The notes under the pieces: generated by a model
Told to the model about the DNA's origin: nothing
The model's input: the letters and a program-made list of their open reading frames with translations, nothing else
Database searches by the model: none
Part shown: in pieces, positions 2,312 through 32,957 of the stretch
Layout: each line of letters opens with the position of its first letter
How positions within the stretch are numbered: the first letter of the stretch is position 1
Made by a program: the position numbers and the translations under genes
Assembly (NCBI RefSeq): GCF_000333595.1
Contig: NZ_BADK01001015.1
Location: forward strand, 1 to 32,957
DNA length: 32,957 bases
Direction of reading: 5' to 3'
DNA from: Azospirillum sp. B506
Lineage (GTDB): Bacteria > Pseudomonadota > Alphaproteobacteria > Azospirillales > Azospirillaceae

Positions 2312-3283
2312 TCATTTCCGCGGCGGCAGGAATTCCTTGTAGAACTCCACGTCCCACGGCACCTCTTCCTGCATGAAGTGCGGCATGGAGTGCATCCAGG
2401 TCGCGGTGCCGAAGCGGAACTCCCACTCGCGCGGGATCCAGTTGTCGTCGAGATAGTCGCTGTCGGCCCCATATTCGGCCTCGCCGCCCGCCGGGCAGAC
2501 CAGGTAACAGAACAGGGCCGAGGCGATGCGGTGGCGGCCGGTGCCGAGGAAACCGTGCTTCCAGCCCTGCCGGGTCATGTGGTTGGAGCCGACCATCACC
2601 TCGTCGATGTCCTCGACGCCGAAATTGCAGTGGTGGAAGGCGGGGCGTCCAGGCATGCCCGGCAGTTTGCAATCGGCCAGGAACATGTTGTGGTGATCGT
2701 TGGCACCGTCGCAGCGCGTGTAGATGCCGACCTCCTTCTGGTGGTCGGACAGGCGGAAGTTCAGCCGGTCGCGGAAGAAGGCGAAGCTTTTCCAGTAATC
2801 CTCCACCGCGAAGACGACATGGTTCAGCGTCTTGGGCCGGGCGCGCCGCTTCCATTTGCGGTGCTGGTTCAGGCGGCCGACATGGCCCGGCGCGTTCAGC
2901 GGATCGGGAGCGTAGACCACCTTCTTCCGGTTGAAGACCCGCAGACCCACCGGCAGGTCGCAGTCGGTGCGGAAGCGCGCCGCCCCGTCCGGCCCGACCG
3001 TCACCTCGCGGTCGCTGCCGAGGTCGCGGACCAGGCGGTCGAAGCTCTCCTGGCTGTCGACGCCCCAGATGGTTTCCTTCACCCCATAGCCCTCGTAGGT
3101 CCCTTTCGGAACGCTGGGATGCCCATAGGGGCGCAGGAGGACGGTTGAGCCTTCATCGAGGCGGAAGACGCTTTCCTCCGCGCTGCGCGACAGCAGCGGA
3201 AGCCCGAAATCCTCGAAGAAGCGGGTGCTGAGGTCGAGATCCTCGACCCCGTACAGGACTGTGTCGATGCCGACGATTGGCAT
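2312..3283 (-). CDS. VOC-family extradiol-type ring-cleavage dioxygenase (module A)
   Basis: A 323-residue vicinal oxygen chelate protein with two tandem glyoxalase-like halves (about 1-115 and 150-290). The C-terminal half carries the 2-His-1-carboxylate iron site expected of extradiol dioxygenases: H155 (LNHVVF), H217 or H218 (FHHCNFGVED) and E270 (EAEYG). The family cleaves catechol-type rings next to the hydroxyls with O2 and Fe(II). The ATG at 3283 follows an excellent AGGAGG site. It is the first gene of a VOC, monooxygenase, FAH series, separated from the upstream NIPSNAP gene by a 292-bp gap with a strong dyad, so it probably has its own promoter. Its paralogue is at 21050-22045. The exact substrate is unknown, and the protein could act on a hydroquinone- or hydroxypyridine-like ring. 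Confidence 0.85.
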   Translation of the reverse strand: MPIVGIDTVLYGVEDLDLSTRFFEDFGLPLLSRSAEESVFRLDEGSTVLLRPYGHPSVPKGTYEGYGVKETIWGVDSQESFDRLVRDLGSDREVTVGPDGAARFRTDCDLPVGLRVFNRKKVVYAPDPLNAPGHVGRLNQHRKWKRRARPKTLNHVVFAVEDYWKSFAFFRDRLNFRLSDHQKEVGIYTRCDGANDHHNMFLADCKLPGMPGRPAFHHCNFGVEDIDEVMVGSNHMTRQGWKHGFLGTGRHRIASALFCYLVCPAGGEAEYGADSDYLDDNWIPREWEFRFGTATWMHSMPHFMQEEVPWDVEFYKEFLPPRK

Positions 3284-30092: not shown

Positions 30093-31460
30093 CTAAGAAA
30101 CTCCGACGGATTCGGCGCCTGCCTCCTGCAGGACGTAGCCCAGTGACTTGGCGCGACGCTGAAGGTTGGTGAGCACGCGGTTCCGATAACGCTCCTCGTA
30201 GTAGGCGGCGCCGGGATCGACGTAGTCCATGCCGTGGCGCAGGGCATTGTAGAACAGCACCGCGATCTTCCGCGCTGTCGCGGTGACCGCCTTGGCCTTG
30301 CCGACGCGGGCCGACAGGCGCCGATAGAAGGCGCCCAGGGCGGTCTCGGTTCTACCCACCGTGGTCGCGGCGAGGCGCAGTAGCGCCGCCGCCCGGCTGC
30401 CCGAACGCCGGGTCCGCGACGACAGCACCTTGCCTCCAGAGATCTTGTTGCTCGGTGCCAGACACAGCCAGGAGGTAAAGTGCTTGGCGCTCGGCCACGC
30501 CGACAGGTCGGTGCCGCACTCGCCCACCAGCTTGAGCGCCAGGGAGGGGCCGAGCCCGTGGATCTGGGTGAGGTCCACGCCGAGGATTGCGTGCAACGCG
30601 ATGCGGGCGTCGAAGGCCGGCGCGTTGGGCTGCTTGGTCGCATGCCGCGCGGGAGGCAGCTTGCCGGCCGGCTTGGCCGCCACGGCCCGAAGCCGCTTGA
30701 GCACCGCCTCGATGCGGGTATCGCAGGCTGCGACCTTGTCCTGGTAGAGGTCGTAGAGTTCGAGCGACTGGGCCAGGGCGAAAACGTGCTCCTCGCGGTC
30801 GTTGCCGACCAGAGCCGCGCGGATCGTCTCTTCCGAGGCCCGGCAGCGCGGATCGCGGTATCCGGCCAGCACGTCAGGGTCGCGCTCACCGGCCACGATG
30901 GCCCGGATGATCCTCATGCCCGTGACGCCGGTGACGTCGGCCACCACATGGTGGAGCTGTAGGTTCATCTGGGTCAGCGCCTTCTGCATGTGCTGGATGT
31001 GGGCAGCGGCATAGTCGAGCAACCGCTCGCGGTGGCGCAGGAAGGCGCGCAGGGCGGCGATCTCGCCGGTTGGCCGGAAGCTGCCGCGCAGCAGACCGTA
31101 CTCGTGCAGGCGACGCAGCCACTGGGCGTCGCTCACGTCGGTTTTGCGCCCGGGGACGTGTTTGGCATCGCGGGCGTTGACCAGCACGACCTCGAAGCCG
31201 CGCTGCTCGAGGATCTCGAACATGGGGACCCAGTAGACGCTGGTGGATTCCATGGCCACGGTGCGAACGCCGCAGCGTTCGAACCAATCGGCGAGACGGT
31301 GCAGGTCGCCGGTGAAGGTGCCGAACGAGCGCACCGGTTCGGGGTCGCAGTCGGGCGGCACGGCGGCCATGTGCATGGTGGCGCCGATGTCGATCGCCGC
31401 CGCATGGGGATGGATCGGGGCCATATCCCGCGCCTTGCGGGACCGCTTCGTTCGCGCCAT
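30093..31460 (-). CDS. IS110-family transposase (DEDD)
   Basis: A 455-residue transposase. The N-terminal RuvC-like DEDD domain shows D24 (AIDIGATMH), E71 (AMESTSVYW), D108 and D111 (KTDVSDAQWL). The C-terminal Transposase_20 domain has the helix-hairpin-helix IHGLGPSLALKLVGECG and the SGGKVLSSRTRRSGSRAA stretch with the conserved serine. ATG 31460 has AGGAGG seven bases upstream. The terminal codons VGVS-TAG lie at the IS3 junction, so the stop may be contributed by the target DNA. IS110 elements use a structured noncoding RNA from their end regions to guide insertion; the flank 31461-31600 is where such an RNA could lie, but I cannot identify it. Confidence 0.93.
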   Translation of the reverse strand: MARTKRSRKARDMAPIHPHAAAIDIGATMHMAAVPPDCDPEPVRSFGTFTGDLHRLADWFERCGVRTVAMESTSVYWVPMFEILEQRGFEVVLVNARDAKHVPGRKTDVSDAQWLRRLHEYGLLRGSFRPTGEIAALRAFLRHRERLLDYAAAHIQHMQKALTQMNLQLHHVVADVTGVTGMRIIRAIVAGERDPDVLAGYRDPRCRASEETIRAALVGNDREEHVFALAQSLELYDLYQDKVAACDTRIEAVLKRLRAVAAKPAGKLPPARHATKQPNAPAFDARIALHAILGVDLTQIHGLGPSLALKLVGECGTDLSAWPSAKHFTSWLCLAPSNKISGGKVLSSRTRRSGSRAAALLRLAATTVGRTETALGAFYRRLSARVGKAKAVTATARKIAVLFYNALRHGMDYVDPGAAYYEERYRNRVLTNLQRRAKSLGYVLQEAGAESVGVS

Positions 31461-31920
31461 CGTGCGTCCTCCTGCTCGTCGGGCCAAGGAGGGGATGGGG
31501 CATGCGAAGTCATCAATTTCCCAACCGGGATCACCGCGCGGGTGTCACCACTCTCAAGTCCGCACCGCCCCATGGGCCACGTTTTTTGACGGGGTCTTGC
31601 GCCTCCAAAAACCAGACGGCCGCTCCCCTCCGCTGCCCATCATAGCGCGGCCCGTTTCTCCACCCGCAGGCGGACCGAACGCCCGCGATCGTTTTTTGGT
31701 AGGTCGCGGTGCATGGATTGGTGATGTTCGACACCGATCCATGCGCCATTTTTCGGCCCGAGGCGAAGGCGCGGCATGGCGGGGTAAATTGCAAGCGGCA
31801 ATTTTCTTTCGCAGTGCGTTTTCACTAGAATTATTGTGGATTGCCTATGCTATTGGTTTAGTTGCTGCGGCATATTCGCTGCACCCCTATTGGCTGATCG
31901 ATTGCAGGAGGGGCCACGCA
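31461..31920. other. Gene-free interval between IS110 and the repeat protein gene
   Basis: The first about 100-150 bp probably belong to the noncoding end of the IS110 element, but its outer limit is not visible. The middle contains a terminator-like hairpin (31711-31753). The last part, 31795-31865, is AT-rich compared with everything around it and is the likely promoter zone for the + strand gene at 31921. No coding region was recognised. Confidence 0.5.
31711..31753 (+). terminator. Rho-independent-type terminator hairpin
   Basis: Arms 31711-31723 and 31732-31744 form 13 pairs with one G-U wobble around an 8-nt loop, followed by GCCA and five T at 31749-31753. On the + strand this suits an intrinsic terminator. 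No + strand gene remains upstream, so it may be the leftover end of a gene removed by the IS rearrangement. Confidence 0.5.
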
Positions 31921-32957
31921 ATGGCCAAGGAACAGGCTCTCGCCCTTATCAAGCGCCTCGCCACCGACGGCGATTTTCGTAATCAATTGAATGCTCTCGA
32001 TATTCAGGGCAAGCAAGCCCTCCTGGCACAAAGCGGGTTCGGCGGGGTTCTGCCCGACCATGTCCACAGCGCTGCTGCTGACGCTTTCAATTTGCTGACT
32101 GGCAAAGACGGTGGCTTGGACAACAGCGTCGCGGTCGAGTCGATTGCGACCGCCGCGTCCGCATCGGCCACCTCCGCATCGGCCACCTCCGCTTCTGCCA
32201 CCTCCGCATCGGCGACTTCTGCCTCGGCTACTTCGGCTTCAGCCACCTCTGCTTCAGCCACCTCCGCCTCGGCGACTTCTGCTTCCGCCACGTCGGCTTC
32301 TGCTACCTCCGCGTCGACAACGTCAGCTTCGGCGATGTCCGCGTCCGCGGTTCCGGCCCCGGCCTTCTCGGCGGTGGCTGCCCCGGCCTCGGCTCACTCC
32401 GCTTCGGCGATGTCCGCGTCCGCGGTCCCGGCCCCGGCCTTCTCGGCGGTGGCTGCCCCGGCGTCCGCCTTCTCGGCTGCGGCGCAGTCCGCGTCTGCGG
32501 TTCCGGCCCCGGCCTTCTCGGCGGTGGCTGCCCCGGCGTCCGCCTTCTCGGCTGCGGCGCAGTCCGCGTCTGCGGTTCCGGCCCCAGCCTTCTCGGCGGT
32601 GGCTGCCCCGGCGTCCGCCTTCTCGGCTGCGGCGCAGTCCGCGTCTGCGGTTCCGGCCCCAGCCTTCTCGGCGGTGGCTGCCCCGGCGTCCGCCTTCTCG
32701 GCTGCGGCGCAGTCCGCGTCTGCGGTTCCGGCCCCAGCCTTCTCGGCGGTGGCTGCCCCGGCGTCCGCCTTCTCGGCTGCGGCGCAGTCCGCGTCTGCGG
32801 TCCCGGCCCCGGCCTTCTCGGCGGTTGCCGCCCCGGCGTCCGCCTTCTCGGCTGCGGCGCCATCCACGTCTGCGGTCCCGGCCCCGGCCTTCTCGGCGGT
32901 TGCCGCCCCGGCGTCCGCCTTCTCGGCTGCGGCGCAATCCGCGTCTGCGGTTCCGGC
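31921..32957 (+). CDS. Nif11-leader-like N-terminus fused to Ser/Ala pentapeptide repeat region, partial
   Basis: An open frame from ATG 31921 (AGGAGG nine bases upstream) to the window edge, 345 codons with no stop. Residues 1-65 look like a Nif11-type leader: MAKEQALALIKRLATDGDFR, then NQLNAL and a LLAQSGFGG segment, closing with LLTGKDGG (Gly64-Gly65), a possible double-glycine cleavage site. Residues 80-139 are twelve SASAT-type pentads; from 140 on a 25-residue unit repeats. No cysteine is seen, and there is no classical signal peptide or membrane helix. Nif11 leaders normally precede short modified peptides, so a repeat tract of at least 265 residues is unusual. Alternatives are a secreted low-complexity surface protein or a chance resemblance of the first 65 residues. 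The leader assignment is moderate; the coding frame is strong. Confidence 0.65.
   Translation, partial: MAKEQALALIKRLATDGDFRNQLNALDIQGKQALLAQSGFGGVLPDHVHSAAADAFNLLTGKDGGLDNSVAVESIATAASASATSASATSASATSASATSASATSASATSASATSASATSASATSASATSASTTSASAMSASAVPAPAFSAVAAPASAHSASAMSASAVPAPAFSAVAAPASAFSAAAQSASAVPAPAFSAVAAPASAFSAAAQSASAVPAPAFSAVAAPASAFSAAAQSASAVPAPAFSAVAAPASAFSAAAQSASAVPAPAFSAVAAPASAFSAAAQSASAVPAPAFSAVAAPASAFSAAAPSTSAVPAPAFSAVAAPASAFSAAAQSASAVP
32158..32337 (+). repeat. Twelve tandem 15-bp units encoding SASA(T) pentads
   Basis: Twelve consecutive five-codon units: ten read SASAT, the eleventh SASTT, the twelfth SASAM. Serine, alanine and threonine codons vary freely between units (TCC, TCG, TCT and TCA for Ser), so the peptide pattern is kept while the DNA has drifted. 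That pattern implies selection on protein sequence and confirms the + strand frame. Confidence 0.85.
32338..32957 (+). repeat. 75-bp tandem repeat (25-residue higher-order unit), at least eight copies
   Basis: Units begin at 32338, 32413, 32488, 32563, 32638, 32713, 32788 and 32863, with a ninth cut by the window edge at 32938. Each unit encodes five pentads in the order SASAV, PAPAF, SAVAA, PASAF, SAAAQ; the first unit is a variant ending PASAH, SASAM. Units from 32488 on differ by only a few bases, so this array expanded recently from the older pentad tract. It is likely variable in copy number. Confidence 0.9.

Follow-up and report, generated by a model that had tools for sequence, protein, structure and literature searches.

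An archaeal TfuA is reported to hydrolyze thiocarboxylated ThiS to supply YcaO (PMC8153245), and ThiS homologues acting with TfuA are described as delivering sulfide (PMC13063428). A repeating thioamidated precursor is known from thiovarsolin (Santos-Aberturas 2019, PMC6511847). By the account in PMC8120280, the YcaO-TfuA thioamidated ribosomally synthesized and posttranslationally modified peptides (RiPPs) then known were all from Actinobacteria, and 70% of the clusters counted were in Proteobacteria. Here we examined a contig of Azospirillum sp. B506 (NZ_BADK01001015.1; its entire 32,957 nucleotides are called the window), which ends on the plus strand in the 5' part of a gene (31921..32957) encoding a leader joined to a repeat core that runs off the contig end. 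With moderate confidence, we read this gene as encoding a giant multi-copy precursor of RiPP type, with YcaO and TfuA thioamidating the backbone of its repeats by means of a ThiS-like sulfur carrier. A conserved leader followed by swapped cores is how RiPP precursors are built, and a YcaO-TfuA-ThiS set that is adjacent and co-occurs points to backbone thioamidation; we infer that the repeat protein is the substrate and a thioamide the product.

The frame at 31921 is a real gene and not a chance frame, because AGGAGG precedes its start (ribosome-binding-site-like AGGAGGGG, 31906..31913, plus strand), its leader is found in 24 of 45 Azospirillum genomes, and its repeat units differ from one another with an excess of synonymous changes. 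It runs for 345 residues without a stop up to the window end and contains no cysteine, so that the well-started plus-strand frame reported in an earlier note, made from the DNA letters alone, was confirmed. The source assembly consists of 1142 contigs, and a repeat-gene 3' end lies on contig C128. Complete precursors from Azospirillum reached up to 505 residues (L043), short ones having 174 (L045) and 201 (L044) residues.

The 24 genomes carrying the leader (query residues 1 to 70), the source genome included, were exactly the 24 that carried a long form of TfuA (E below 1e-200; 71 to 100% identical). Besides the window, we had 22 loci from relatives, one per other carrier except G027, whose coordinates put leader and long TfuA approximately 2.4 kb from each other. 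In 14 of the 22 loci, the precursor gene was followed on the same strand by genes for YcaO, TfuA, and a ThiS-like protein, and a rhodanese-ThiF gene came next in 12 of these 14 uninterrupted loci. The other eight (L001, L002, L046 to L050, and L052) are interrupted within the repeat by a contig end or a stretch of N. The mark of a YcaO-TfuA RiPP, both genes beside the precursor, was therefore seen in 14 of the 22 loci and on C128, and the modifying enzymes that the earlier note had placed among the genes to look for were found directly downstream in the relatives. The precursor and the enzymes were still together in L039 and L040, which have no glyQS in the 9.5 to 10 kb upstream. A second leader match was present in 14 of the 24 carrier genomes. 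The leader profile matched none of 37 other genomes of the order and none of 383 genomes of the class, where scoring covered up to 14 candidates in each genome and misses are possible; no relatives were matched in plasmid records or in viral contigs.

In the source genome, the enzymes are encoded on C128 (3296 bases), which opens in a repeat-gene tail (...SPSPSAGSDDQTTEA-stop, the stop ending at base 112) and continues with YcaO (243-1553; PF02624, E of 3e-76), TfuA (1550-2962, L058; PF07812, E of 2e-41), and the ThiS-like gene (2959-3243; PF02597, E of 3.6e-4, 21.5 bits against a cut-off of 22.5). The three genes have 4-nt overlaps, and the contig ends before any rhodanese-ThiF gene. From the gene order of the relatives and the repeat tail on C128, we infer that precursor and enzymes are adjacent in this genome as well. 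The nearest solved structure to YcaO was MJ1094 (6pe3, E of 1.5e-25), and its best NCBIfam model was that for McrA-glycine thioamidation, TIGR03266 (203.8 bits, cut-off of 365); the azoline model TIGR03604 scored lower (129.1 bits), and the general YcaO domain TIGR00702 was over its cut-off. TfuA was nearest to 6xp8, over residues 4 to 212, and to NF033432 (190.1 bits, cut-off of 235.2), which forms the McrA-glycine thioamidation pair with TIGR03266. We take 6pe3 and 6xp8 to be the McrA thioamidation YcaO and TfuA, which fits the NCBIfam names. The ThiS-like protein ended in GG in 15 of 15 cases. The rhodanese-ThiF protein, with MoeB (1jw9) as its nearest solved structure and a score over the cut-off of NF006444 (MoeB), kept the rhodanese Cys and two CxxC motifs in 12 of 12; a GG carrier and a ThiF with the rhodanese Cys, the two marks of a ThiS sulfur relay, were thus both found, the latter protein missing at 2 of 14 loci.

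The TfuA of C128 has approximately 250 extra C-terminal residues, outside the PDB match and without a Pfam match, for which two distant relatives (31 and 29%) were found in a class sample of 385 genomes; a tandem-repeat finder gave nothing at their two loci, and the G254 locus has a 74-residue open reading frame (ORF) ahead of YcaO. Short TfuA relatives are spread across the genus Azospirillum. The source genome also has a second YcaO-TfuA pair, split over two contigs (L060, 1-1079; L061, 2622-3723), with a 65-residue nonrepetitive ORF ahead of YcaO as a possible substrate.

The leader and its junction with the core (residues 1 to 80; 31921..32160, plus strand) form a sub-threshold Nif11-like domain according to profile matches, the leader alignment, and the structural model of L003. 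The alignment comprised 14 leaders out of the 24 carriers, with 54 to 96% identity among the 14 loci. PF07862 matched 12 of the 14 at an E of <=0.1 (best E, 2.8e-4) and TIGR03798 matched all 14 at the same threshold (best E, 1.3e-5), while PF07862 gave 17.3 bits with the whole 345-residue window protein. The Nif11 and NHLP-clan models matched consistently and weakly, below the curated cut-offs wherever bits were known, and the resemblance to Nif11 is a weak one. Of the Nif11-like leader ending in KDGG proposed earlier, the motif (residues 62 to 65; 32104..32115, plus strand) and the weak family resemblance stood, while membership by the PF07862 and TIGR03798 cut-offs did not. Invariant positions in the 14 aligned leaders included L13, A14, T15, D16, F19, R20, L23, N24, and K31 together with E73, S74, A76, and A78 of the leader-core junction ESIATA (residues 73 to 78; 32137..32154, plus strand). 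A conserved Gly-Gly before the core was not found among 23 leaders, with GG within residues 58 to 70 in 5 of them (the window, L035, L042, L044, and L051), whereas ESxA was invariant in 14 of 14 aligned. The AlphaFold model of the relative L003 predicted leader helices at residues 2 to 15, 17 to 25, 28 to 37, 45 to 60, and 68 to 83 (block means of 64 to 80 for residues 1 to 60), and the model of L041, which has 18-residue units, predicted a helical leader with nearly the same helices. Additionally, the NCBIfam model of the IniB N terminus matched 10 of the 14 leaders weakly (best E, 1.8e-4); IniB carries a long Gly/Ala-rich tail. The IniB match spans alignment residues 32 to 54 (about 22 residues) and is below the cut-off in the members viewed singly. 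Leader and enzyme distances correlated at 0.61 to 0.68, a value expected from common descent alone, to which we gave no weight.

The repeat core (32158..32957, plus strand) keeps a five-residue register, as the earlier note had seen; from residue 80 on this is mostly (S/P)-A-x-A-x, and the core is free of cysteine. It opens with 10 SASAT pentads and continues with 25-residue units of five pentads each (for example, SAVPAPAFSAVAAPASAFSAAAQSA). The window repeat had a self-identity of 0.91 when shifted by 25 residues and of 0.65 when shifted by 10, and the 25-residue unit has the pentads as sub-units. No pentapeptide-repeat Pfam model, PF00805 included, matched the window protein at an E of <=10, and a pentapeptide-repeat fold was rejected on the absence of that match. 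Behind the conserved leader, the core is hypervariable in unit length and sequence between species groups: units are of 25 residues (the window group, which has a common short acidic tail), 18 and 29 (GFAAAGAPSPAASAAGMA type), 44 (with Cys; L037 and L042), 15 (three kinds), 10 (PAAATPATAM), and 9 (AGIFAGQPA) residues, and their copy number varies between species. The unusual shape of a leader on a long repeat tract, to which attention had been drawn earlier, was thus supported. Ala makes up 30 to 49% of 22 of the 23 cores and 17% of the frame-shifted L051 core; counted up to the tail, Asp, Glu, Lys, Arg, and His add up to 0 to 9 residues in each core of 22 of the 23 loci and to 92 in L051. In L040, the main unit AGIFAGQPA occurs 12 times and is free of Ser, Thr, and Cys, as is one stretch of 55 residues; cyclization or dehydration at Ser, Thr, or Cys side chains is therefore impossible in those units, and a backbone thioamide is possible.

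The DNA of the units points to selection on the peptide. Neighboring units in 19 of the 23 genes (L002, L050, L051, and L052 omitted) showed 703 synonymous versus 188 nonsynonymous codon differences when the comparison was kept to stretches whose local peptide identity was 60% or more, a filter that favors synonymous changes. Recounting with flanking-DNA identity filters gave 68 to 85% synonymous among differing codons, and recounting without a filter, with out-of-register stretches included, gave 44% (902 versus 1127). Random single changes would be expected to give 30%; selection therefore probably maintains the unit peptide, with an apparent strength that depends on the register filter. The ten SASAT pentads of the window are encoded by nine different DNA words. 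Structure prediction of the L003 repeat was beta-rich with low confidence (mean predicted local distance difference test [pLDDT] score of 54.1; five models, 29 to 54), and the core of L041 had no predicted structure (mean pLDDT, 39.5). A Foldseek search of the L003 model against the PDB returned six matches, all with an E of >=2.5 and the first a beta-helical antifreeze protein, and was given no weight.

A pathway consistent with this gene set, to which published work ascribes thioamidation, can be proposed. The helical Nif11-like leader with its ESxA junction would recruit a dedicated modification complex. The MoeB-like rhodanese-ThiF would load sulfur onto the C-terminal Gly-Gly of the ThiS-like carrier, the long TfuA would free the sulfur from the thiocarboxylated carrier, and YcaO, using ATP, would swap backbone amide oxygens for sulfur along the Ala-rich core. 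General proteases might then cut the repeat into many short thioamidated peptide copies, as proposed for thiovarsolin, or the repeat might stay long as a thioamide-bearing polymer. Of 15 loci examined, 10 have a GC-rich hairpin behind the stop of the precursor gene (of the other five, two have no intergenic gap, two have stemless gaps of 22 and 32 nt, and one has a 925-nt gap that was not folded), and the hairpin may hold precursor mRNA in excess over enzyme mRNA. That the mature product is a genetically encoded polythioamide of several hundred residues, with one or more thioamides per unit and a unit freely replaced between species, is a tentative and rather doubtful extension of the thioamidation reading. 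If true, such a polythioamide could be a protease-proof fiber or a soft-metal-binding polymer, and a product that stays long would be a new class of backbone-modified biopolymer.

Several observations weigh against thioamidation of the repeat protein. In the source genome, the ends of the window contig and C128 do not overlap, so precursor and enzymes are on separate contigs. The TfuA of this genome, used as a query, found some match in all 45 genomes (in one only at an E of 5.9e-5), and TfuA alone is therefore not specific to the repeat gene. Because the genomes are related, the co-occurrence in 24 of 45 does not count independent events, and the split of 24 and 21 genomes may reflect few gains or losses rather than 45 independent ones. 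In L002 (matching G032) and L052 (G034), the leader and the long TfuA are separated by a large distance on one scaffold or sit on different contigs, which we took for scaffolding trouble at the repeat. The leader scores of the window fall short of the family cut-offs (PF07862 with residues 1 to 70, E of 2.2e-4 and 21.9 bits against 23.8; TIGR03798, 18.8 bits against 32.3), as do those of the ThiS-like protein (1 bit below for PF02597; 42 against 60 bits for the NCBIfam SAMP1 model). The loci without rhodanese-ThiF are L039 and L040, the latter the bearer of the unit free of Ser and Thr, and at L040 an enzyme with its gene elsewhere would therefore have to charge the carrier. In L051, the leader frame departs from the repeat frame and the repeat goes on in another frame, for which reason we read this copy as decayed or mis-sequenced. 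Finally, no export or leader-protease gene was recognized among the identified neighbors.

The enzymes could instead modify another protein, as is known elsewhere for McrA, or for YcaO with ribosomal uL16, the repeat protein being a neighbor with its own role, such as an unmodified IniB-like surface or structural protein. Thioamidated housekeeping proteins are indeed described (PMC13063428), and the weak IniB match of 10 of 14 leaders fits such a role. However, the 24 genomes (of 45) with the leader are also those with the long TfuA, the precursor keeps its same-strand order beside the enzymes in all 14 uninterrupted loci, two of them without glyQS in the 9.5 to 10 kb upstream, and the swapping of cores behind a conserved leader is a RiPP pattern. 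We therefore consider this alternative unlikely.

Less probable still is the mechanism suggested in the earlier note, in which a C39 peptidase-transporter removes a Nif11/N2P leader by cutting after Gly-Gly and the tract is either Ser/Thr modified (azoline formation, dehydration, or glycosylation) or exported as a repeat polymer. The KDGG of the window protein and its weak Nif11 match agree with it, as does the distribution of TIGR03796 transporters over the cut-off, which were found in 16 of 45 genomes (13 of 24 carriers versus 3 of 21 noncarriers). But in these 13 carriers the transporter gene is on another contig or, in G011, about 80 kb away; the source genome has none over the cut-off (best, 462 versus 853 bits; 19 of 214 first-look candidates scored); and no C39 peptidase-ABC transporter was found by Pfam among the conserved neighbors, covering 4 enzymes and 10 flanking ORFs of L035 and not every ORF per locus. 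Cleavage after Gly-Gly is also not supported when GG within residues 58 to 70 occurs in 5 of 23 leaders and the junction E73-S74-x-A76-x-A78 is invariant in the 14 aligned, and Gly-Gly/C39 export is thus disfavored by both the leaders and the genome search. Azoline formation or dehydration of Ser/Thr is disfavored by the L040 unit and by the closest YcaO model, the thioamidation one rather than the azoline one, and Ser/Thr modification of the tract in general fits the L040 unit poorly. That the tract is low-complexity sequence that slips neutrally and has no function itself is very improbable: its simple Ala-rich composition, the variation of unit and copy number between species, and the off-frame L051 would suit this, but the synonymous share (44 to 85% by filter versus 30% expected), the nine DNA words for ten pentads, the open frames up to 505 residues, and the common acidic tail of the 25-residue-unit group speak against it.

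Other features surround the precursor gene. The motif TTGCCTATGCTATTGG (31841..31856, plus strand) lies 65 to 80 bp before the start codon and has one exact copy in the source genome and one elsewhere with 2 mismatches; in 16 of 23 loci, a looser form lies at -73 to -79. We also considered, by eye, whether the sequence upstream is sigma54-like and dropped this reading, since it is not kept in all relatives. In 13 of 14 loci, the cluster is followed on the opposite strand by a response regulator gene, with histidine kinases, and these are possible regulators; response regulator and PAS/receiver histidine kinase genes are at 15534-19998 in L035 and 13608-16209 in L003. A CheX/CheC-like gene lies further upstream of glyS on the plus strand (L035, 3118-3765). 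Upstream of the precursor gene and outside the system, the window carries an IS110-family transposase (30093..31487, minus strand). Contig C924 carries glyS, glyQ, a GNAT gene, a second leader-repeat gene, and then, at the contig end, an IS110 stretch 99.2% identical to window positions 30093-30724 (632 bases), and an IS110 copy therefore stands beside each leader-repeat gene. This second gene (L059, 659-1138, minus strand) encodes 159 residues with a core of its own (KAAAAISGPAETAGISVPAIACAGF units). The first 30 kb of the window may be truly adjacent to the precursor gene or may be joined to it through the insertion element. Positions 1-29000 are mainly catabolic (aldehyde dehydrogenase, AMP-binding ligase, FAD enzymes, and amidohydrolase), with a Phenol_MetA_deg protein, AraC regulators, and MFS transporters, and show no link to the repeat gene.

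In a culturable genus, the locus brings together a repeat precursor, what looks like a complete sulfur relay, and one leader followed by many natural core variants; it allows direct tests of which residues YcaO-TfuA prefers and of what becomes of multi-copy thioamidated cores. Already published are Nif11-TfuA clusters (PMC8120280) and, for thiovarsolin, a repeating thioamidated precursor (PMC6511847). A precursor of several hundred residues with an Ala-rich core swapped between species was not found in the searched literature, which mostly leaves out subscription papers; within it, nothing on TfuA in Azospirillum was found, that on YcaO in Azospirillum concerned other subjects, judged by title, and no title on repeats with thioamide or YcaO described such a precursor.

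The enzyme genes of this locus probably correspond to AZL_022710/AZL_022680 of Azospirillum B510, given in Haft 2010 (PMC2887384) as an unfused docking scaffold (YcaO-type) and a cyclodehydratase three ORFs away on the chromosome, an arrangement like the Azospirillum order here. That paper treats the B510 genes beside NHLP peptides and calls their chemical fate undeterminable, and its passages on these genes do not mention a repeat protein. Malit 2021 (PMC8120280) describes, as at this locus, a Nif11-like precursor with a YcaO-TfuA pair and has MoeB in a figure gene key; the words 'Azospirillum' and 'repeat' are absent from its main text. The McrA thioamidation YcaO-TfuA belong to the same enzyme families and supply the nearest solved structures by sequence (6pe3 and 6xp8), but their substrate is an enzyme modified at a glycine, and the Azospirillum TfuA adds the approximately 250 C-terminal residues. 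For thiostreptamide S4 (TsaH/TsaI; PMC8153245), YcaO and TfuA are predicted to add four thioamides iteratively in one core, although that core is single and short and is made into a macrocycle with further modifications. Thiovarsolin (VarA, VarY, and VarT) resembles the Azospirillum locus in having a repeating core in one precursor, and, as described in PMC6511847, it requires YcaO and TfuA for the product and has no specific protease in its cluster. VarA differs in having five imperfect repeats, and the actinobacterial cluster adds ATP-grasp, amidinotransferase, and heme oxygenase-like enzymes (PMC6511847), whereas the Azospirillum locus has a precursor of up to 505 residues, a Nif11-like leader, and ThiS-like and rhodanese-ThiF genes in the cluster.
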